64,000 nt of DNA from Verrucomicrobiaceae bacterium (GCA_027488755.1 JAIYAZ010000059.1:1-64000); one strand, 5' to 3'. Shown: positions 42,555 to 54,172, counted from the first letter of the stretch. The notes: generated by a model not told the origin, from the sequence alone. Made by a program: numbers and translations.

Positions 42555-45419
42555 GTGAACCCGCTTCGTCTCTTTCCGGTTTCGATGGTGACTTTGCTGG
42601 TGGCCCTGCCTTCGCTCCAGGCGCAAACCCCGCCGGCTCCGGCCCCGGCCGCGCCTGCCGCCGCGCCCGCGGAGGGCGACATCACGGCTATGCTGAAGTC
42701 GGCAATGGCGGCCTTCGACGGCGGCGACTTCCCGCAGGCCATCACCGGCCTCAACCAGGTCCTCAAGGAGATCGACCCCAAGTCGCCGCAGGTCGAGGCC
42801 ATCACGTTTTCGCTCGGAGCCGCCTACTTCAACACCAAGCAATACCCCGAGGCGATCGCGACGTTTAAGTCGTTCGTCGAAAAGTTTCCGACGAGCCAGC
42901 GCCGCAATGAGGCCATCTTTGCCACCGGCCAGGCTCAGCTTCTCAGCGGCGATCAAGCCGGCGGGGCGGCGACCCTGAAGACCCTGGAAAACGTGCCGGG
43001 CATGCGCGACCAGGCCCTCATCTTCGGCGCGAACGCCGCAAAGGCCGCCGGTAACAACCCCGAAGCCATCGCCACGCTTGAGAAGCTCACCTCCGGCGGC
43101 ATTCGCAACAGCCTCACCGCGAAGGGCGCCATCATCCTTGCCGATCTTTACATTGAAGCCGGCGACACCGACAAGGCGTCCGCCCTCATCAATAAGCTGC
43201 AGAGCAACCTGCGCTTCGTGGAGAACATCGTCGGCCTCGACTCCCTCACCCTGCGGCTGGGCGACAAACTTTTTGAAAACAAGGACTACGCGGGTGCCCT
43301 CGAAGCCTTCCGCCGGGTTCGGTTGAAGGAGGAAATCATCGAAGCCCAGCAGCGGCGCATCGCCGACATGGAGGCCTCGGCCGAGCGGCTCCAGCAGGAC
43401 ATCAAACGCGACCCCGCCAAGGCCCCGCAGAACGCCGCCGCCCTCACGCAGATTCGCGCGGACATTGAGGCCTCGAAGAAGCAGCTCGCCGATTTCCAGA
43501 ACCTGCCCCCCATCCTCGGGCCGCTCTACCTGCGCATGGCCCGCGCCTTTGCCGAGCAGGGACAGCCGTGGGAGTCCATTGTCGTCTACGAGGCCCTCCT
43601 TAAACAAATCCCCACCGGCAAGGACCGAGAGCCCGTGCTCTTCGCCCTCGTGGCGACGAACGGGGACGTCAACCAGCCCGCCGCGGCCCTCCAGCGCGCG
43701 GACGACTATCTCAAGGAATTCCCCGCCGGCCCGAACGTTGGCCTCGTGAAATACCTTCGCGGCATGATCGCCGTGCAGAGCGGCGACACGAAAAACGGCG
43801 AGACCTGGCTCACCGAACTCACCAACGACACCACGCTCAAGCCCGAGCTCGCCCAGCAGGTCCTCCTTTCCCTCGCGAACATCAAGTTCTCCCAGGGCCG
43901 CTTCCCCGACGCCATCGCGGACTACCGGAAATTCATCGAACGCTACCCCAGCGCCGGCCAGAGCGGCGAACTCACCGAGGAGGCCGTCTACCGCATCGCC
44001 ATCGCCAACCTCTTCGACGGCAAGTTTGAGGAGGCGATCAAAAACCTGAACGAATACCTCGCGAAGTATCCCAGCGGCGCCTTCCGCGGGGACGCCAAGT
44101 ATCGCCTCGCCTACTGCAGCTTCGCCGCGCAGGACCACCAGGCCGTCATTGATCAATGCCTCGCCTGGGAAAAGGAATTCCCCGACGACAACCAGCTCGG
44201 CGAAGTCGCCTCCCTGCTCGGCGACGCCTATGTCGCCAAGGGCCAGAGCAACGAAGCCGTGGAAGCCTACAAGCGCTCCTACACGCACGCGGCGACGGAT
44301 CAGGTGCTGAACTACTCCATCTTCGAGGCCGCCAAGCTCATGCAGCAGCAGGGCCGCTGGGCGGACATCGCCACGATGTTCGAGGACTTTGTCCGCAGCA
44401 AGCCCGACCATCCCACCACGCTCGCCGCCATGTTCTGGATCGGGAAAGCCAAGGCCCGCGACGGCAAGCCCGACGAAGCCAAGCAATTCCTCGCCGAAAA
44501 CATCAAGAAATTCATCGACGATCCCAGCCGCGAACCCGTCGAGGAAATGCTCGCCCAGCTCGCCCAGCTCACCGCCAAGCGCAAGCGCCCCCCGCTCCCA
44601 GCCCCCGGCGCCACGCCCGCCCCCGCGCCCGCGCAGCCCGATCCGGCCGTCGAACTCGAGGGTCTGCTCGCCTTCGCCCGTGACACCCCCACCGCCGAGG
44701 CCCGGGCGCTCTTCGCCAAGTCCGAGCTCGCCCGCTTCCGCCGCCAGCCCGAAGAGCAGCAGGCCCTCCTGAAGAAGGTCGCCGATTTCAAACCGGAGGA
44801 CCTCAGCCCGCCCCTGCTCGGCGTCGCGGGTGATTATCTCCTCGATGCCGGTGAGCTCGACCACGCCGCGGCCCTCTACAAATACCTCCTCGATTATTAC
44901 CCGAAGAGCCCCTTCATCGACTTCGCCTACGCCGGCCTCGGCGAGGTGGCCTACGAAAAGGGTGAATACGACAAGGCCCTCACCTACTTCAACGACGGCA
45001 CGCAGAAAATCGCTCCGAACAGCAAGCTCGCCGCCCTCACCCTCGGCCGCGCCAAGGCCATGCTCGCCCTCAACCGCGACGACGAAGCCAAGCCCATCTT
45101 CGAGTTGGTGGCGCAGACCCGCGAATGGCGCGGCGAACCCACCGCCGAGAGCGTCTTCTCCCTCGGGGAAATCCAGCGCAAAAAAGGCAACTGGGCCGAG
45201 GCCAACGCCTTCTACCAGCGCGTCTTCGTCACCTACCGCAAGTTCACCAAGTGGGTGGCGAAATCCTACCTCCAGAGCGCCGAGATGTTCGTCAAACTCG
45301 GCAAGAACCAGGAGGCCATGAAAACGCTCAGCGAAATGCTGCGCGACGAAAAACTCGCGCAACTTCCCGAGGCCGCCACCGCTCGCGAACGTCTCAAACA
45401 GCTTAGCCCCCAGTCATGA
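42555..45419 (+). CDS. large secreted TPR protein of the Exb/VWA cluster
   Basis: The 954-residue protein has a signal peptide (VTLLVALPSLQAQ) and then helical tetratricopeptide repeats over almost its whole length, for example SGELTEEAVYRIAIANLFDG and AAALYKYLLDYYPKSPFIDF. A Pro/Ala-rich linker splits the array near residue 680. Periplasmic TPR proteins of this kind often bind Tol, TonB or Bam partners. GTG 42555 starts the signal peptide; ATG 42585 is an alternative. The stop overlaps the next ATG, so this is the first gene of a six-gene operon. Confidence 0.87.
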   Translation: MNPLRLFPVSMVTLLVALPSLQAQTPPAPAPAAPAAAPAEGDITAMLKSAMAAFDGGDFPQAITGLNQVLKEIDPKSPQVEAITFSLGAAYFNTKQYPEAIATFKSFVEKFPTSQRRNEAIFATGQAQLLSGDQAGGAATLKTLENVPGMRDQALIFGANAAKAAGNNPEAIATLEKLTSGGIRNSLTAKGAIILADLYIEAGDTDKASALINKLQSNLRFVENIVGLDSLTLRLGDKLFENKDYAGALEAFRRVRLKEEIIEAQQRRIADMEASAERLQQDIKRDPAKAPQNAAALTQIRADIEASKKQLADFQNLPPILGPLYLRMARAFAEQGQPWESIVVYEALLKQIPTGKDREPVLFALVATNGDVNQPAAALQRADDYLKEFPAGPNVGLVKYLRGMIAVQSGDTKNGETWLTELTNDTTLKPELAQQVLLSLANIKFSQGRFPDAIADYRKFIERYPSAGQSGELTEEAVYRIAIANLFDGKFEEAIKNLNEYLAKYPSGAFRGDAKYRLAYCSFAAQDHQAVIDQCLAWEKEFPDDNQLGEVASLLGDAYVAKGQSNEAVEAYKRSYTHAATDQVLNYSIFEAAKLMQQQGRWADIATMFEDFVRSKPDHPTTLAAMFWIGKAKARDGKPDEAKQFLAENIKKFIDDPSREPVEEMLAQLAQLTAKRKRPPLPAPGATPAPAPAQPDPAVELEGLLAFARDTPTAEARALFAKSELARFRRQPEEQQALLKKVADFKPEDLSPPLLGVAGDYLLDAGELDHAAALYKYLLDYYPKSPFIDFAYAGLGEVAYEKGEYDKALTYFNDGTQKIAPNSKLAALTLGRAKAMLALNRDDEAKPIFELVAQTREWRGEPTAESVFSLGEIQRKKGNWAEANAFYQRVFVTYRKFTKWVAKSYLQSAEMFVKLGKNQEAMKTLSEMLRDEKLAQLPEAATARERLKQLSPQS

Positions 45420-46246
45420 AATCCGTTGCCCTTTTCCTGGCCGCGTTCGGCTTGCTGGCGACCCTCCACGCCCAGCGTGTGACCCTCAAATCCGGCGAGG
45501 TCATCCCCGCCGAGGCCGTCGCCCGCTCCGGCGCGACCCTCAACGTCACCATCAAACTCCCCGCCGGCAAGGTCACCCGCGGCATTCCCGCCGCTTCCGT
45601 CCAAAAAATCGACTTCCCCGAGCCGCCCGACCTCGCCGCCGCCAGCCAGATCCTCGAGTCGGGCAACGCCGCGCTCGCCCTCGCCAAGATCAACCCCGTC
45701 ATCGCCGCGCAGCAGCCCTTCCGCGACATCCCCGGCAACTGGTGGGACAAAGCCGTCAACGTCAAGCTCTCCGCCCTCGGCGTGCTCCGCCTCGACGAAC
45801 AGATCGCCCCCCTCGTGGCCGAGCTGGCCCGCTTCAGCGGCAGCCCGGAGACCGCCCGCATCGCCCGGCTTTACGAGGCGAAGGCCCAACTCAAAAAGGG
45901 CAACAACGAGGGCGCCGTCGCCGTCGCCAACATCCTCATCGAAGAGAGCAAGCAGTCCGACCTCCTCGCCAGCGCCTGGCTCATCGCCGGCCAGGCCGAG
46001 CTCGCCCGGAAAAACTACCGCGCCGCCCTGCTCGCCTTCCTCCACGTGCCGGTCTTCTTCCCCGACCAGAAGGTCGCCATGCCGACCGCCCTGCTCGGCA
46101 GCGCCCGCGCCTTTGAGGGCATGGAGGATTTCGCCCGCGCCAAGGACGCCCTCGACAAGCTTGTGGCCGACTACCCCGGGTCGCCCGAGGCCACCGAGTC
46201 CAAAGAGGACTTGAAACGCGTCACCCGCCAACTCAATAAGATTTAA
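45416..46246 (+). CDS. secreted TPR-like protein of the Exb/VWA cluster
   Basis: The 276-residue protein has a signal peptide (MKSVALFLAAFGLLATLHA), a small beta region (QRVTLKSGEVIPAEAVARS), and TPR-like helices (AWLIAGQAELARKNYRAALL, then FPDQKVAMPTALLGSARAFE). The ATG overlaps the stop of the large TPR gene. It is probably a periplasmic partner of that protein. The function is otherwise unknown. Confidence 0.8.
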   Translation: MKSVALFLAAFGLLATLHAQRVTLKSGEVIPAEAVARSGATLNVTIKLPAGKVTRGIPAASVQKIDFPEPPDLAAASQILESGNAALALAKINPVIAAQQPFRDIPGNWWDKAVNVKLSALGVLRLDEQIAPLVAELARFSGSPETARIARLYEAKAQLKKGNNEGAVAVANILIEESKQSDLLASAWLIAGQAELARKNYRAALLAFLHVPVFFPDQKVAMPTALLGSARAFEGMEDFARAKDALDKLVADYPGSPEATESKEDLKRVTRQLNKI

Positions 46247-46288
46247 CCCCAGTTTGAAATTCACCCCATCCCGCCCCACGTTCCAACC

Positions 46289-47110
46289 ATGAAAACCCGC
46301 ACCGCCAAAATCCTCGCGACCTCCCTTGCGTTCGCTTTCGTCATGGGCTCCGCCGCGCTCCTCGCAGCCCCGGCCGCCGGCGAAGGCGGCGCCTCCGTCC
46401 AGAAAAAGACCCTCTGGTCCACCCTCGTCCAGGGTGGCTGGGTCATGATCCCCATCGGCATCTGCTCCGTGCTCACCGTTTACCTCGCGGGCGACGGCAC
46501 GATTCGCACCAGCCGCAAGAAATCCATCCCCGCCGACCAGGAGGCCGCCGTGAAGGATCTCTTCCGCCAGGGCGACTACGTGGGCGCCTACCAATACTGC
46601 AAGGCCAACCCCAGCCCGTTCACGAACGTCATCCGCGCCGGCGTCAGCCGCCTCGGGGACGGCAAGACCATCGTCGAGGAAGGCATCCTCGGGGAACTCT
46701 CCAAGGAAAACTCCAAGCTCCAAAGCTGGATCAGCTACCTCTCCGTGATCGGCGTTTGCACGCCCATGATCGGTCTCCTCGGCACCGTCGTCGGCATGAT
46801 CGACGCGTTCGAAGCCCTGGGCCAGGCCGGCATCGGCGATCCCTCCGCCCTCTCCGCCGCCATCGGTCACGTGCTCGTCGCCACCGCCAGCGGTCTCGCC
46901 GTCGCCATTCCGGCCTTCGGTTTCTACTACTACCTGCGCAACCGCACCCAGGTGATGACCCACGACATCCAGGCCCTCTGCGACAGCCTCTTCCGCAAAA
47001 TGCCCTACGAGTCCTTTGCCGGCGCCCACGTCGGGGACGAGGAACTCTACGCCGCCGACCCGAACTGGGTGGCGGGCTCCTCGGCCACCGGCGAAGAGGT
47101 CCCGGCCTAA
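46289..47110 (+). CDS. ExbB/TolQ/MotA-type proton-channel protein
   Basis: The 273-residue protein has an extra N-terminal signal-like segment (LATSLAFAFVMGSAALLAAP) and three ExbB-type helices. Characteristic are WISYLSVIGVCTPMIGLLGT and VVGMIDAFEALGQAGIGDPS, followed by the ATASGLAVAIPAFGFYYYLR helix. With ExbD it forms the ion channel that uses the proton gradient to do work in the periplasm. An N-terminal extension is common in non-model ExbBs. It is followed by two ExbD genes. Confidence 0.92.
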   Translation: MKTRTAKILATSLAFAFVMGSAALLAAPAAGEGGASVQKKTLWSTLVQGGWVMIPIGICSVLTVYLAGDGTIRTSRKKSIPADQEAAVKDLFRQGDYVGAYQYCKANPSPFTNVIRAGVSRLGDGKTIVEEGILGELSKENSKLQSWISYLSVIGVCTPMIGLLGTVVGMIDAFEALGQAGIGDPSALSAAIGHVLVATASGLAVAIPAFGFYYYLRNRTQVMTHDIQALCDSLFRKMPYESFAGAHVGDEELYAADPNWVAGSSATGEEVPA

Positions 47111-47155
47111 GCCCGGCCCTCCGGACCAACCCCAACCCCCAAGAAATAACCTGCT

Positions 47156-47611
47156 ATGGCCAGCGGCGGAGGCGGAGACGGCGAACCCGAGTTTCAGATC
47201 GCACCGATGATCGACGTGCTGATCGTGCTGCTCGTGTTCTTCATGAGCATCACCTCCACGCAGGTCCTCCAGGTCGACAAAACCGTCCAGCTTCCCCTCG
47301 CGCCCGACGCGAAAAAGAAGGACGACAAACGCTCCGAGGCCATCATCAACGTCCGCTGGGACGAGGCCACCGAGAAACCGACCTTCGTCGTCAACGAGCG
47401 GGTTTACGCCACGCCCAGCGAGCTCACGCCGGCCCTCCAATCCGCGCGCATCGCGGATGAGAAATCCGACAAACACTCCGACGGCAAAAACTTCCGCGTC
47501 GTGATCCGCGGCGACCGCAACGCCCACGCCGCCGCCGTTTCGCAGGCCATGAACGCCGCCGCCGAAGCGGGCATCGTGGACGTCTCGTTCTCGGCCATGA
47601 ACAAGGACTGA
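47156..47611 (+). CDS. ExbD/TolR-type protein (first copy)
   Basis: The 151-residue protein has one transmembrane helix with the essential aspartate (IAPMIDVLIVLLVFFMSITS, D20) and a periplasmic TolR-like domain ending in AAAEAGIVDVSFSAM. The aspartate carries protons in ExbD. The sequence is clearly different from the second ExbD, so the pair may form a hetero-oligomer in one channel. It follows exbB by 45 bases and precedes the next gene by four. Confidence 0.9.
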   Translation: MASGGGGDGEPEFQIAPMIDVLIVLLVFFMSITSTQVLQVDKTVQLPLAPDAKKKDDKRSEAIINVRWDEATEKPTFVVNERVYATPSELTPALQSARIADEKSDKHSDGKNFRVVIRGDRNAHAAAVSQAMNAAAEAGIVDVSFSAMNKD

Positions 47612-47615
47612 CCGC

Positions 47616-48062
47616 ATGAAGACGATCACCAGCAACCCCAACGAGGGCAACGTCGGCTTTCAGATCGCGCCGATGCTCGACGTCATCTTCGTCATCATGC
47701 TCTTTTTCATGGCCATGGTCGGCCAGGTGAAGATCGAGCAGGAACTCAACACCCAGCTCCCCGGCTCCGCGGAAACCAAGGGCCAGCAGGACTTCGTCGA
47801 CGAGTCCATCATCACCATTGCCGAGGACGGCGAAGTCGCGCTCAACGACGACATCATGGACTCGCCGGACAGCACGACCCTCACCCAGCTCAAGGGCACG
47901 CTCATGCGGCTCAAGGAAAACGCCGACGCGGCGAAAACGCCCGCCGTCGTCACCATCGTCAGCGACGCGACCGCCCGCTACAGTCGCACCATCGATGTGC
48001 TCAACGCCCTTTCCGTGGCCGGCATCACCAACGTGACGTTCACGATTGCCGAGCAAAATTAA
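47616..48062 (+). CDS. ExbD/TolR-type protein (second copy)
   Basis: The 148-residue protein repeats the ExbD plan: membrane aspartate in QIAPMLDVIFVIMLFFMAMV, then a periplasmic domain ending in LNALSVAGITNVTFTIAEQN. Its spacing to neighbours is four bases upstream and three downstream, so translation is coupled. Two ExbDs behind one ExbB are usual in Verrucomicrobia-like and delta-proteobacterial Exb loci. Confidence 0.9.
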   Translation: MKTITSNPNEGNVGFQIAPMLDVIFVIMLFFMAMVGQVKIEQELNTQLPGSAETKGQQDFVDESIITIAEDGEVALNDDIMDSPDSTTLTQLKGTLMRLKENADAAKTPAVVTIVSDATARYSRTIDVLNALSVAGITNVTFTIAEQN

Positions 48063-48065
48063 GCC

Positions 48066-49139
48066 ATGAACACCGAGCCATCCGCGGAATCCCCCCTCGA
48101 ACCGGCCCAGCCGGCGGCTCCCGCCAAACCGAAGCGGAAGTTTTTTGCCCTCAAGAGCAAGTTCCTCTGGATCAGCATCGGCTTCCACGCCCTCCTGCTC
48201 CTCGTCGCGGGTTACTTCGTCGTTTCCACGATTGTCTCCCGCCCGAAGCCGGAGTTTAAGGCGGGCCCGAAGGGACCCAGCGCCCCGGCCTCGATGGAGC
48301 ATCAGATCCAGATGACCAAGCGGCAAAACACGATGAGCGCCCCGGCCACCAAGCGCATCGTGACCAAGGGGGCCAACGCCGCCATCGCCCTCCCCGACCT
48401 GCCCAGCCTCGGCCAGGACGACAGCTTTGCCCCCAGCGCGATGGCGGGCATGGGGGCCCCCGGCGCGGCCGGCCAGATGGGTGGCGGCCTCGGCGGCGGC
48501 GGCGAGCCGATCAACTTCTTCGGCCTGCGCGCCAAGTCGAAATCCATCGTGTTCATCATCGACGTCACCGGCTCGATGGTCAGCGGCAAAAAGGACTCCT
48601 CCACCTGGGTCCTCCTCGAGGACAAGGTCACCGAATCGATCTCGAAGCTCCCCTCGAACACCAATTTCAACGTCGTGGTCTTCGGGCCCGACTCGCAGAG
48701 CTTCAAGCCCAACCTCGTGCCGGCCACGAAGACCAACATCGACGCGGCCCTCAGCTTCGTGAAGAGCTGGAGCCCCGTGCGCGCCCTCAAGGGCGGTGAA
48801 ACCAAGGGAACCGCCGCGACCTGGGACACGCCGCGCGGGAAGCGCCACAAGGGCACCGTGCCCTCCAAGGCCTTTCAGCTCGCCTTCCGGATGAAGCCGG
48901 AAACCATCATGTTTCTGTCCGACGGAGATCCGACCGTGCCCGACAAACCCGCGGCCGTGCTCACGCTGCTTCAGCAGCTCCAGGGGCAGATCACCAAAAA
49001 GGTGAAAATCAGCGTCATCGCCTACTTCGCCGACAGCGGCCAGGCCTTCATGCGCGCCGTGGCCGAGCAAAACGGCGGCGAGTTCCGCGAGATCAGCGTC
49101 CGCAGCGACGCCGAGACGGGCGCCAAGCCCGCCTTGTAG
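48066..49139 (+). CDS. TonB-like membrane-anchored von Willebrand A protein
   Basis: The 357-residue protein has a basic, proline-rich cytoplasmic start and one transmembrane helix, FLWISIGFHALLLLVAGYFV, that contains S37-x3-H41, the motif TonB uses to couple to ExbB/ExbD. A periplasmic linker with a Gly/Met-rich patch follows. The VWA domain comes next (SIVFIIDVTGSM metal site at about 160-171, later FLSDGDPT), with no TonB C-terminal domain. It is probably the energised output of the operon. The target is unknown. Confidence 0.85.
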   Translation: MNTEPSAESPLEPAQPAAPAKPKRKFFALKSKFLWISIGFHALLLLVAGYFVVSTIVSRPKPEFKAGPKGPSAPASMEHQIQMTKRQNTMSAPATKRIVTKGANAAIALPDLPSLGQDDSFAPSAMAGMGAPGAAGQMGGGLGGGGEPINFFGLRAKSKSIVFIIDVTGSMVSGKKDSSTWVLLEDKVTESISKLPSNTNFNVVVFGPDSQSFKPNLVPATKTNIDAALSFVKSWSPVRALKGGETKGTAATWDTPRGKRHKGTVPSKAFQLAFRMKPETIMFLSDGDPTVPDKPAAVLTLLQQLQGQITKKVKISVIAYFADSGQAFMRAVAEQNGGEFREISVRSDAETGAKPAL

Positions 49140-49401: not shown

Positions 49402-49962
49402 ATGGAAATTCCTCGCTCCACTCCCCTTGTTGAAGCCGCGAAATCCCACCCGGACTTCCACGCGGCCGCCTGCGACCTGTTTCTCACGGCGCTGACGACT
49501 GGCAATACCGTCTCCGCGCTGGAGACGCGCTACCTCGCCGAGCACAACATCACGCCGGGCCGCTTTGCCGTGATGCTCCTCCTCGGCGTCGAGGAAAGCA
49601 TCACCCGCAAGCCCTCGCAGCTGGCGGAAATGATCGGCGTCACCCGCGCCACGATGACCGGTCTGCTCGACACCCTCGAGCGCGATGACTTTGTCCGCCG
49701 GGCGATTGACCCGAACGACCGCCGCTCCATGCGCGTTGAGAGCACGCCCGCCTGCCGCGAACTCCTCAAAAAGGTGCTTCCGGGTTACTTCCGCCTCCTC
49801 CAGGCCATCCCGGCCACGCTTACCGAGCCGGAGCAGGCCGAGTTCATCCGCCTGAGCCGCAAGCTCAGCGACGGCCTCCAGCTCGCGGAAAACAAGTTTG
49901 TGGACCGCGCGATCGCCGGTCACAGCGCGCCGCCTTTGTCGAATTCGTATGCCGAAGCCTAG
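49402..49962 (+). CDS. MarR-family transcriptional regulator
   Basis: The 186-residue protein has the MarR winged helix: LAEMIGVTRATMTGLLDTLE (recognition helix) and FVRRAIDPNDRRSMRVESTP (wing, DDRR-type motif). Dimers usually repress adjacent efflux genes until a small phenolic or drug binds. The downstream adaptor gene starts within its last codons (14-base overlap), so the regulator and the pump are one operon, probably autoregulated. Confidence 0.92.
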   Translation: MEIPRSTPLVEAAKSHPDFHAAACDLFLTALTTGNTVSALETRYLAEHNITPGRFAVMLLLGVEESITRKPSQLAEMIGVTRATMTGLLDTLERDDFVRRAIDPNDRRSMRVESTPACRELLKKVLPGYFRLLQAIPATLTEPEQAEFIRLSRKLSDGLQLAENKFVDRAIAGHSAPPLSNSYAEA

Positions 49963-51085
49963 GGTCTGGCTTTCGCTCATTGTCACGGTCGTCGCGCTGG
50001 GCGTCCTCGTGTTCCTGCTGGGGGGCTTCAAGTTCCTCCAGATTCGGCATCTCATGTCGCAGTCGTTCGTGATGCCGCCCACGGCGGTCACCTCGCTCGT
50101 GATCGAGGAGCAATCGTGGCAGCCCACGCTCGCGGCGGTCGGCACGGTGAAGGCCGTGCAGGGCGTCACGGTCAGCACGGATCTCCCGGGCATCGTCGAA
50201 AAAATCACCTTCGAGTCCGGCCAGCCGGTCAAGGCGGGGGATCCCCTCGTGAAGCTCGACACGAAGCAGGAGGAGGCCCAGCTCGTCTCCGCGCAGGCCC
50301 GGCTCCAGCTCGCCAAGCTCAACCTCAGCCGCCAGCAGGAGCTCCTCAGCAAACGCGTGGCGGCGCAGTCGGACTTCGACGCCGCCAGCGCGGAGTTCAA
50401 GCAGGCCGAGGCGGCCGTGGCGGAAATCCGCGCCACGATTGAGCGCAAACTCATCCGCGCTCCGTTCGCCGGAGTGCTCGGCATCCGCCAGGTGAACCTC
50501 GGCCAGTATCTCCAGAGCGGCGATCCCGTCGTGCCGCTCCAGTCGCTGGATCCGATCTACGTGAACTTCTCCCTGCCCCAGCAGCGGCTGGCGGACCTCC
50601 AGCCCGGCCGCCCCGTGAACGTGCGGGCCGACGGGTTGCCCGGCGAGCAGTTCAACGGCCGGATCACCTCCGTGGACAGCGTAATCAACGACGCCACCCG
50701 CAACGTGCTCGTGCAGGCCACCCTCGACAACCGCGAGCACAAGCTGCGGCCGGGCATGTTCGTGAGCCTCGAAGTGCTCCTGCCCACCCAGGAAAAGGTG
50801 ATCGCCGTGCCGGCCTCGGCCGTGACCTACGCGCCGTATGGCGACTCCATCTTCGTGATCGAGTCGATGAAGGGCCCGGACGGCAAGGCCTACGAGGGCG
50901 TCCGCCAGCAGATCGTGAAGCTCGGGCCGGCGCGGGGCGACCAGGTCGCCATCGTTACGGGGCTCAAGGCCGGCGACGAAATCGTCACGGCCGGCGGGTT
51001 CAAGCTCATGCCGCATGCGCCCGTCGTCCGCAACAACGAAGCCCAGCCCGACAACTCGGCCAATCCGACGCCCGGGGACAGCTAG
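49949..51085 (+). CDS. RND efflux periplasmic adaptor (membrane fusion protein)
   Basis: The 378-residue protein has an N-terminal membrane anchor (VWLSLIVTVVALGVLVFLLG), a biotinyl-lipoyl half motif (VSTDLPGIVEKITFESGQPV), a coiled-coil hairpin, then beta-barrel and proximal domains. It joins an RND pump to an outer-membrane channel. ATG 49949 is preferred because it directly precedes the anchor. It overlaps the MarR gene and is 15 bases before the pump gene. No TolC-like gene is in the window. Confidence 0.93.
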   Translation: MPKPRVWLSLIVTVVALGVLVFLLGGFKFLQIRHLMSQSFVMPPTAVTSLVIEEQSWQPTLAAVGTVKAVQGVTVSTDLPGIVEKITFESGQPVKAGDPLVKLDTKQEEAQLVSAQARLQLAKLNLSRQQELLSKRVAAQSDFDAASAEFKQAEAAVAEIRATIERKLIRAPFAGVLGIRQVNLGQYLQSGDPVVPLQSLDPIYVNFSLPQQRLADLQPGRPVNVRADGLPGEQFNGRITSVDSVINDATRNVLVQATLDNREHKLRPGMFVSLEVLLPTQEKVIAVPASAVTYAPYGDSIFVIESMKGPDGKAYEGVRQQIVKLGPARGDQVAIVTGLKAGDEIVTAGGFKLMPHAPVVRNNEAQPDNSANPTPGDS

Positions 51086-51100
51086 CCGCCGCGATTCCCC

Positions 51101-54100
51101 ATGAAGTTGACCGACATTTTTGTGCGGCGGCCGGTGCTCGCCCTCGTGGTGAACATCGCGATCCTCATCGCCGGGCTCCAGTCCATCAAGAGCCTGGCCG
51201 TGCGCCAGTATCCGCGCAGCGACATCGCCGTCGTGAAGGTCAGCACCGCCTACGTCGGCGCGAACGCCGATCTCGTGCGCGGCTTCATCACCACACCGCT
51301 GGAGCGCGTCATCGCGAGTGCGGACGGCATTGACTACATCGAGAGCTCCAGCGCGCAGAGCCTCAGCACCATCACGGTGCACCTCGACCTCAACTACGAC
51401 ATCAACGCCGCGCTCACGCAGATCCAGGCCAAGGTCGCCCAGGTCCGCAACGACCTGCCGCCCGAGGCCGAGGCACCCGTAATCGACGTCGAACTCGCCG
51501 ACAACGAAATCGCCGCGATGTATATCGGCTTCGCGTCCGACACGATGGACGCCAGCCAGATCAGCGACTACCTGCTGCGCGTCGTGCAGCCGAAGATCAG
51601 CGCCATCAACGGCGTGCAGAAGGCGGAGATTCTCGGCAACCGCACCTTCGCCATGCGCCTTTGGCTCAAGCCGGAGAAAATGGCCGCGCTTGGCATCTCG
51701 CCCACCGAGGTGCGCGACGCCCTCACGGCCAACAACTACCTCTCCGCCCTCGGCCGCACGAAGGGCACGATGACCGCCGTCAACCTCGTTGCGAACACCG
51801 ACCTCCGCACGCCCGAGGAGTTCCGCGACCTCGTGGTGAAGCAGTCCGGCGACACGATCATCCGCCTCGGCGAAATCGCCGACGTCGAGCTCGGCGCCGA
51901 AAGCTACGACGACGCCGTGCGCTTCGACGGGCAGACCGCGACCTTCATGGGCGTCTGGACGCTGCCCACCGCGAACTCCCTCGACGTCATCCGCGCCGTG
52001 CGCGAGGCCATGCCCGCCATCCAGGCCGCCCTGCCCGCCGGCATGCGCGCCGACATCGCCTACGACTCGACCATCTACATCGACGCCGCCATCCACGACG
52101 TCATCAAAACCCTCATCGAAACGCTCATCATCGTCGTCGCGGTGATCTTTCTGTTCCTCGGGTCGGTGCGCGCCGTGTTCATCCCGGTCATCGCTATCCC
52201 GATCTCCCTCGTGGGCGCCTGCCTGCTCATGGCGATCTTCGGCTTCACGCTGAACCTCCTCACGCTCCTTGCCATCGTGCTCTCGGTCGGTCTCGTCGTG
52301 GATGATGCCATCGTCGTCGTGGAAAACATCGAGCGCCACCTGCACGAGGGCAAAACCCCCTTCGACGCCGCGCTCATCGGCGCGCGCGAGTTGGTGGGTC
52401 CGGTCATTGCGATGACCATTACGCTCGTGGTCGTCTACACGCCCGTCGCGATTCAGGGCGGCCTCACGGGCGCGCTCTTCCGCGAGTTTGCCTTCACCCT
52501 CGCCGGCGCGGTCGTCATTTCCGGCATCGTCGCGCTGACCCTCTCCCCCATGCTCGGCTCGAAGCTGCTGCGGGCGGGCGACACGCAACGGGGTTTTGCC
52601 GGCGTCGTGAACCGCCGCTTCGACAAGATCCGCAGCTTTTACGCCCGCGCGCTGGAGATCACGTTGCACCACCGCCCGGCGGTGATCGCGTGCTGGATCG
52701 TGGTGACGCTGCTCTCGATTCCGTTCTACATGTTTTCCACGCAGGAGCTCGCCCCGGTGGAGGATCAGGGCGTCGTCTTCGGCATCGTGCAGAGCCCGGC
52801 CGATGCGACGCTTGAGCAGACCAAGCTGTTCGCCGGAAAAATCTACGACGTGTTCCGCAGCTTCCCCGAGGCGAGGAGCATCTTCGAAATCATCAATCCC
52901 GCGATGGGGTTCAGCGGCATGGTGGTCAAGCCGTGGAACGAGCGCAAACGCACGACGGAAGAGCTCCAGCTCGCCGCCTCGGAGGAGTTTGCCAAGGTGC
53001 CCGGCGTGCGCATCATCCCGATTACGCCGGCCCCGCTGCCCGGCGGCGCGCAGTTCCCGGTCGACTTTGTGATCGGCTCCACCGCCGAGCCGAAGGTGCT
53101 GCTCGAAATCGCAAACAAGCTCGTCGCGAAGGCGTTCGCGAGCGGCATGTTCATGTTTGCGGACAGCGATCTGAAGTATGACCAGCCGCAGGCCGAGGTG
53201 CTCTTTGACCGCGACAAGGTGCGCGCGCAGGGCATCAACCTCTCGCAGGTCGGCGCGGACCTGTCGACCATGCTGGGCGGCAACTGGGTGAACCGGTTCA
53301 GTAACTCCGGGCTCAGCTACAAGGTGATCCCGCAGATCAAGCGGGTGAGCCGCCTCAACACGGACCAGCTCGGCGACATCTACGTCACGGGACCCGCGGG
53401 CAAGCTCGTGCCGCTCTCGACGTTTGCCACGATTGAGACGACCGCCCAGCCGCGTGAACTCAAGCGCTTCCAGCAGATGAACGCTGTGCGCATCCAGGGC
53501 GTGATCCCGCCGGGTGTCCCGCTCGACAGCGCGCTCAAGGTGCTGGAGGACGAGGTGAAGAACAGCCTGCCCGTGGGCTACAGCATCGACTACGCGGGCC
53601 AGTCGCGACAGCTCCGCGTCGAGGGCAGCAAATTCCTCCCCGTGCTCCTGCTCTCGCTGGTGCTCATCTACCTCGTGCTCGCGGCCCAGTTTGAGAGCTT
53701 CCGCGACCCGTTCATCATTCTCTTCGGCTCGGTGCCGCTGGCGATCTCCGGCTCGCTCATGTTCACCTTCCTCGGCTTTACCTCGCTGAACATTTACAGT
53801 CAGGTCGGGTTGATCACGCTGGTTGGCCTCGTGGCGAAGAACGGCATCCTCATGGTCGAGTTCGCGAACCACCTCCAAGAGAGCGGCCGTGAGAAGCTGC
53901 ACGCCATTCTTGAGGCTTCCGCGACGCGCCTGCGGCCAATTTTGATGACGACGGCGGCAACGATTGTGGGTCACTTCCCGCTGGTGATCGCGAGCGGCCC
54001 GGGCGCGGCGGCGCGCAACTCCATCGGCATCGTGCTGTGCACGGGCATGTTCATCGGCACGGCGTTCACGCTCTTTGTTGTGCCGGCGATTTACATGCTC

Positions 54101-54172
54101 ATCGCGCGCCGCCGGGAAAAGCTGGCGGAGGCCGGTCCCGAGGGCTCGATGCCGGCTCCGGCGGGGGTTTAG
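51101..54172 (+). CDS. RND multidrug efflux permease (HAE1 type)
   Basis: The 1023-residue protein is full length for AcrB/MexF relatives: helix 1 with FVRRPVLALVVNIAILIAGL, two periplasmic loops, and the central helix 4 stretch LLAIVLSVGLVVDDAIVVVE with the paired aspartates that relay protons. The second half repeats it (VGLITLVGLVAKNGILMVEF). It expels hydrophobic compounds using the proton gradient. The specificity cannot be read. The stop overlaps the convergent protease gene at TTAG. Confidence 0.95.
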   Translation: MKLTDIFVRRPVLALVVNIAILIAGLQSIKSLAVRQYPRSDIAVVKVSTAYVGANADLVRGFITTPLERVIASADGIDYIESSSAQSLSTITVHLDLNYDINAALTQIQAKVAQVRNDLPPEAEAPVIDVELADNEIAAMYIGFASDTMDASQISDYLLRVVQPKISAINGVQKAEILGNRTFAMRLWLKPEKMAALGISPTEVRDALTANNYLSALGRTKGTMTAVNLVANTDLRTPEEFRDLVVKQSGDTIIRLGEIADVELGAESYDDAVRFDGQTATFMGVWTLPTANSLDVIRAVREAMPAIQAALPAGMRADIAYDSTIYIDAAIHDVIKTLIETLIIVVAVIFLFLGSVRAVFIPVIAIPISLVGACLLMAIFGFTLNLLTLLAIVLSVGLVVDDAIVVVENIERHLHEGKTPFDAALIGARELVGPVIAMTITLVVVYTPVAIQGGLTGALFREFAFTLAGAVVISGIVALTLSPMLGSKLLRAGDTQRGFAGVVNRRFDKIRSFYARALEITLHHRPAVIACWIVVTLLSIPFYMFSTQELAPVEDQGVVFGIVQSPADATLEQTKLFAGKIYDVFRSFPEARSIFEIINPAMGFSGMVVKPWNERKRTTEELQLAASEEFAKVPGVRIIPITPAPLPGGAQFPVDFVIGSTAEPKVLLEIANKLVAKAFASGMFMFADSDLKYDQPQAEVLFDRDKVRAQGINLSQVGADLSTMLGGNWVNRFSNSGLSYKVIPQIKRVSRLNTDQLGDIYVTGPAGKLVPLSTFATIETTAQPRELKRFQQMNAVRIQGVIPPGVPLDSALKVLEDEVKNSLPVGYSIDYAGQSRQLRVEGSKFLPVLLLSLVLIYLVLAAQFESFRDPFIILFGSVPLAISGSLMFTFLGFTSLNIYSQVGLITLVGLVAKNGILMVEFANHLQESGREKLHAILEASATRLRPILMTTAATIVGHFPLVIASGPGAAARNSIGIVLCTGMFIGTAFTLFVVPAIYMLIARRREKLAEAGPEGSMPAPAGV

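Follow-up and report, generated by a model that had tools for sequence, protein, structure and literature searches.

An ExbB/ExbD operon with a putative vWA-headed force transducer in a Verrucomicrobiaceae bacterium and its relation to Akkermansia MUL1

The window analysed here, a stretch of 64,000 nucleotides from the Verrucomicrobiaceae bacterium GCA_027488755.1 (JAIYAZ010000059.1:1-64000), contains an operon encoding two secreted tetratricopeptide repeat (TPR) proteins, ExbB, two ExbD proteins and a membrane-anchored von Willebrand A (vWA) protein. The operon belongs to the "vWA force transducers" proposed in 2025, whose first family in Fig. 4 of that study it represents (Mol Biol Evol 2025, msaf138; PMC12204202). 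The new type of energised envelope machine that an initial, sequence-only reading of the window had suggested is therefore of a kind already described. The reading favoured here, an energised system of the Ton/Tol kind whose heads are plug-in parts and which probably handles large glycans, has a somewhat better than even chance of being correct, and builds on the observed order of the genes, the folds, the modular heads, the homology of the motor and the contact covariation.

According to this reading, the operon would encode a proton-driven motor of the ExbB/ExbD type in the inner membrane, built with two dissimilar ExbDs, as well as a transducer resembling TonB. The lone transmembrane (TM) helix of the transducer would dock on ExbB, with its Ser/His pair set against the equivalent of E. 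coli ExbB Ser34, while a long flexible linker would span the periplasm and bear the vWA head. This head would be one interchangeable end piece among vWA, PA14 sugar-binding-like and squalene-cyclase-like toroid domains. Together with the two secreted TPR proteins, it would engage a partner, either periplasmic or in the outer membrane, to which force is applied. The likeliest job would be to energise the capture of large glycans or their import into the periplasm, in line with the homologous MUL1 system of Akkermansia.

Architecture of the operon and its transducer

The genes and the features of their products are as follows.

42555..45419, + strand: TPR1, secreted TPR-repeat protein, 954 aa, GTG start (Pfam TPR)
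45416..46246, + strand: TPR2, secreted, 276 aa, N-terminal non-TPR domain followed by TPR (Pfam)
46289..47110, + strand: ExbB, motor protein (MotA_ExbB PF01618, E 5e-25)
46466..46468, + strand: codon of ExbB Ser60, counterpart of E. coli ExbB Ser34 in the alignment
47156..47611, + strand: ExbD1 (PF02472, E 5e-17), with TM Asp20 (APMID)
47616..48062, + strand: ExbD2 (PF02472, E 4e-18), with TM Asp22 (APMLD)
48066..49139, + strand: vWA transducer, 357 aa, with cytoplasmic tail, TM anchor, Gly/Pro linker and vWA head (Pfam VWA_3, E 6e-8)
48144..48236, + strand: TM helix, residues 27-57 of the transducer (AlphaFold model), its sole TM helix, carrying S37-x3-H41
48288..48332, + strand: second predicted helix, residues 75-89 (AlphaFold), flanked by the near-invariant F64 and P93
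48510..49118, + strand: vWA head, residues 149-351 (AlphaFold; top Foldseek match in the PDB is the inter-alpha-inhibitor vWA, prob 1.00)
48561..48575, + strand: D166-V-T-G-S170 of the type of a metal ion-dependent adhesion site (MIDAS; sequence and alignment column statistics)

Coordinates and order (open reading frame check) and families (Pfam) of the six genes agree with the sequence-only reading, as does its description of a tight operon: TPR1 and TPR2 overlap by 4 bases, and the following gaps measure 42, 45, 4 and 3 bases. Instead of the GTG at 42555, TPR1 could start at an in-frame ATG at 42585. The motif SIGFH (residues 37-41; H41 codon at 48186-48188) lies inside the TM helix, according to both sequence and AlphaFold model, and the MIDAS motif is present in the vWA protein; both had been claimed. 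In the family alignment, H41, F64, P93, G153, D166 and G338 are near-invariant, and H41 occurs in 54/57 aligned relatives, a conservation equal to that of the vWA Asp. Helix 75-89 could possibly serve as a "motor box" in the AlphaFold model, in which residues ~90-147 are disordered. BatB is also among the Foldseek matches of the vWA head.

A TonB C-terminal domain (TonB_C) concealed in the vWA protein had been named as a counter-case. No TonB_C match was found in this protein by Pfam, and its C-terminal fold is vWA (Foldseek). The claim that TonB is missing is correct for the operon and does not extend to the genome, in which TonB_C genes are present on contigs C73 (adjoining an ExbB) and C130, together with one TonB-dependent receptor plug. 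Thus, the operon operates alongside a Ton system instead of standing in for one.

Conservation, exchangeable heads and homology to MUL1

Loci were sampled across Verrucomicrobiota, genes in the fetched loci were called with a home-made caller, and paralogs within the host genome were collected by family search. Of 103 genes matching the VWA profile, 59 adjoin ExbD genes and 44 are free-standing (a few are cut by contig ends). The order TPR1-TPR2-ExbB-ExbD(-ExbD) upstream of the transducer, for which a search across Verrucomicrobia and Planctomycetes had been proposed, is complete in 54/59 motor-linked loci. S-x3-H is present in 47/59 motor-linked proteins, a further 9/59 have the His but a different residue at -4, and 3/59 have no His, compared with a chance level of 1/126 for S-x3-H in unrelated N-terminal TM segments of the same loci. 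Most free-standing copies also keep the motif.

Copies vary in number and context. The host genome carries a second complete operon on contig C164 (L047:8033-14728; transducer G000:C164:125017-126063), with the motif SVGLH and an ExbB of a different subclade from that of the window. Genomes of genus g57 (G035, G050, G087, G160, G228) contain 13 to 15 anchor genes each; in G228, motor linkage was seen for a single VWA locus, and among these genomes, several free copies are paired with a PA14-headed anchor at L100, L135 and L136. TPR1-TPR2-vWA cassettes without adjoining ExbB/ExbD occur at L277, L281 and L283 in the genus of the window and at L287, as if TPR proteins and head formed a module that shares a motor encoded elsewhere. 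Orphan vWA relatives with no motor genes nearby (L052, L120, L144, L163) have His-less, Gln-containing TM helices. Beside some free-standing transducers lie type II secretion/pseudopilin or Verru_Chthon A-like genes (L095:612-7797, L111:4305-7685, L165:2787-6389), an association that is seen at some loci and is not general.

A profile of the anchor, i.e. the N-terminal 158 positions of the transducer, detects anchors in 95/241 sampled genomes (~40%), compared with 68 genomes for the full VWA protein at a stricter E-value. By head, the 154 anchor genes comprise 98 vWA, 23 PA14-like, 23 toroid and 10 left unassigned by the head models; the last are diverged and contain a vWA-like DxSxSM motif (L148, L151, L152, L211, L212, L215, L248, L256, L259, L263). 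The toroid heads are squalene-hopene-cyclase-like with Pfam scores above cut-off; the PA14-like heads score just below cut-off, and their fold matches are sugar-bound PA14 domains (prob 1.00). Both types occupy the operon slot after TPR1-TPR2-ExbB-ExbD-ExbD, toroids at L207 and L213, PA14-like heads at L055 and, in the window's own genus, at L278 and L280. In the ExbB tree, the ExbB of the window groups with those of L055 and of L048, where both a PA14-like and a vWA head are found in tandem. Judged from these sequences, vWA is an exchangeable head on a shared anchor. At L207:8572-12152, one gene run continues directly past the toroid-headed transducer with a further ExbB-ExbD pair and an additional large protein.

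The host genome is in the same class as Akkermansia. TPR2 matches the NCBIfam model Mul1B (NF052542) only weakly and under the cut-off (E 0.0027), while profile-profile comparison aligns the two over 261 columns (prob 98.2, E 3e-14). Full Mul1B matches are confined to one sampled family, which matches named Akkermansiaceae/Akkermansia records and in which the MUL1 locus has the order ExbB-ExbD-ExbD-TPR-Mul1B. Circularity was avoided by using hidden Markov models (HMMs) trained without this family. The ExbB model finds the MUL1 ExbB at 158-189 bits; the ExbD1 model prefers the first MUL1 ExbD (84-112 bits) to the second (43-56), and the preference of the ExbD2 model is reversed, with 89-103 bits for the second MUL1 ExbD and wrong partners at 43-56. 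The TPR1 HMM matches the large TPR protein of MUL1 with E 5e-46 to 1e-5 in the family; in records named as Akkermansia, the values are 3e-40 to 5e-36, and the same MUL1 homology was recovered in named A. muciniphila records. In the ExbB tree, the MUL1 ExbBs nest among those of VWA loci; the paralogs L088 (G020) and L083 (G012) form a clade branching beside this VWA/MUL1 clade. All five proteins besides the transducer, namely ExbB, the two ExbDs and the TPR pair, are homologs of MUL1 components, the names Mul1A and Mul1B being used in the sense of homology only. This homology argues for MUL1 as a rearranged offshoot of a system that spans the phylum.

Covariation between ExbB and the transducer

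In E. coli, TonB Ser16 and His20 contact ExbB Ser34 and Trp38, and Trp38 packs on Pro190 (PMC12215075). For numbering, the ExbBs were aligned with an E. coli sequence, in which S34, W38 and P190 match the published positions and P190 also matches a PDB alignment. Position 34 is Ser in 56/56 motor-linked loci with a TM His. The three His-less loci, L103, L133 and L170, have Phe, Asn and Ala at this position, respectively; at L103, a His counted in the automatic table is cytoplasmic, and the TM helix, inspected by eye, has none. Fisher's exact test, calculated by hand, gives p = 1/C(59,3), ~3e-5, which is not corrected for relatedness. Relatedness was treated by one ExbB tree, on which four changes are required to account for the His-less entries (the three loci and MUL1), with three of the four imposed by branches of good support. 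The MUL1 ExbBs of the Akkermansia family have Glu, Phe, Val or Leu at position 34, and their candidate transducers are His-less. Ten further ExbBs from the taxonomic order of the window all have Ser34, and His is retained wherever the cognate helix could be read.

Loss of the motif from a conserved operon had been named as a refutation, and it does occur in 3/59 loci. Since the matching ExbB Ser34 is lost in all three, the contact is favoured and not refuted. This His-Ser34 covariation is, at the level of sequence, evidence of physical coupling that is independent of modelling, and it supports the predicted docking of the transducer on the motor. Coupling of a TonB-like anchor to an ExbB/ExbD motor thus appears well supported by operon linkage, motif and covariation.

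The sequence-only reading had proton energy passed to a metal-dependent adhesion domain that pulls on TPR complexes. Anchor-motor coupling and periplasmic TPR partners are retained from it, but metal-dependent adhesion is no common principle and fails as the general target, because the vWA head is swapped in the same slot for PA14 and cyclase-like domains, and the third MIDAS Ser is found in only 34/57 aligned relatives.

Function and comparison with known systems

MUL genes are reported to be needed for accumulating mucin products inside A. muciniphila (reviewed in PMC12418764, PMC12928651), and the glycan import job is proposed because of this phenotype of the homologous MUL1. Proton flow would move the anchor and tension would reach the head, with the TPR proteins as probable partners of the transducer; the cargo would be a large glycan, and the PA14 head makes a glycan plausible as the ligand that the head would bind.

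Several findings weigh against this reading. A search with profile P0001 found no VWA in Akkermansia MUL1 loci, and no transducer gene is present there. The candidate anchors of the Akkermansia family lie elsewhere in the genome, are His-less and carry PA14, toroid or vWA heads, mostly non-vWA; they would have to pair with the MUL1 motor, and the MUL1 phenotype therefore may not transfer to transducer-bearing operons. Trp38, part of the Ton/Tol contact network, is not conserved in this ExbB family. Sulfatases are not enriched near free-standing VWA transducers (6/82 vs 18/115 random regions of the same genomes). A link of these genes to polysaccharide clusters, striking by eye in multi-copy genomes, was dropped, as sulfatases were commoner in the random-region control. 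Regulator domains of the PBP type (PF13377) occur in 6/82 VWA neighbourhoods vs 2/115 random regions, numbers too small to use.

A Tol-Pal-like tethering or division machine, in which the motor pulls CpoB/BamD-like TPR proteins and so holds or constricts the outer membrane, is unlikely. The nearest curated models are TolQ/TolR for ExbB/ExbD, below their cut-offs, and YbgF for TPR1. However, the anchor is present in only ~40% of the sampled genomes, in up to 15 genes per genome, the heads are exchangeable and the reported defect of MUL1 mutants concerns mucin use. Pfam also detected neither TolB nor Pal in the operon or the scanned flanking genes, which include a glycosidase upstream and, directly downstream (49402-54172), an ordinary set of MarR regulator, HlyD-type fusion protein and AcrB-type efflux pump. 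That the vWA protein merely adjoins motor genes and acts as a non-energised scaffold or assembly factor for TPR proteins, comparable to BatA/BatB vWA with BatC TPR, is less probable again: the BatB fold match, the 44/103 free-standing copies and the motorless cassettes in the same genus would fit, but S-x3-H is rare by chance and yet kept by most free copies, and the His covaries with Ser34 in motor-linked loci. Least probable is a motility or surface-adhesion machine that moves an adhesive vWA complex, an idea proposed as gliding (PMC12204202) and in line with the vWA fold and its partly conserved MIDAS, as non-vWA domains replace the head in the same slot, the MIDAS is not strictly conserved and the operon contains no motility genes.

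The energised glycan-handling reading can be widened: an ExbB-ExbD1-ExbD2 motor with Mul1A/Mul1B-type TPR proteins and plug-in transducers might constitute, next to Ton and Tol, a third energised outer-membrane class that is widespread in Verrucomicrobiota and serves large-glycan import, with MUL1 as a derived branch and no gut-specific invention. The chance of this falls a little short of even. Aquatic Akkermansiaceae were described as lacking MUL1 synteny, and MUL1 as a mucin-specific, gut-specific adaptation (PMC13174399), a view that the homology calls into question. For the vWA transducers, AlphaFold 3 (AF3) had placed the His on the motor; they were published with neither a function nor a deletion phenotype, and gliding was suggested (PMC12204202). 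The MUL1 link supplies a testable phenotype for proteins whose contact had been modelled only, and the covariation identifies residues for mutation. The system could help to explain how large polysaccharides enter the periplasm of Verrucomicrobiota, and a single motor anchor that accepts different heads would, if true, represent a principle new to force transducers of the periplasm.

With TonB-ExbBD, the operon shares the motor type, the anchor Ser/His, the long linker and a periplasmic head; unlike it, the operon lacks a TonB_C fold, a TonB-dependent receptor gene and ExbB Trp38 and has two different ExbDs and TPR partners. TolQ/TolR are the best-scoring curated relatives of ExbB/ExbD and Tol-Pal likewise has a TPR partner, but the operon is without TolB, Pal and a TolA head. 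Bat (aerotolerance) operons also combine membrane-anchored vWA and TPR proteins; unlike Bat vWA proteins, the window's transducer contains the TM His motif, and Bat operons are not known to include ExbB/ExbD.

Homologous ExbB, ExbD1, ExbD2, large TPR protein and Mul1B are common to the operon and MUL1, which differs in its permuted gene order, the absence of a transducer from the locus, His-less anchors elsewhere and loss of ExbB Ser34. The closest counterparts are the published vWA transducers, with a TM helix carrying the His motif, a disordered linker and a C-terminal vWA domain, and with a family in Planctomycetes-Verrucomicrobia-Chlamydiae (PVC) bacteria in which the transducer gene is preceded by a TPR gene, a tolQ-like gene and a pair of tolR-like genes. 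That study described vWA heads only, one TPR gene, an AF3-modelled contact and no function (PMC12204202), to which the present analysis adds exchangeable heads, two TPR genes, covariation at the contact and homology to MUL1.

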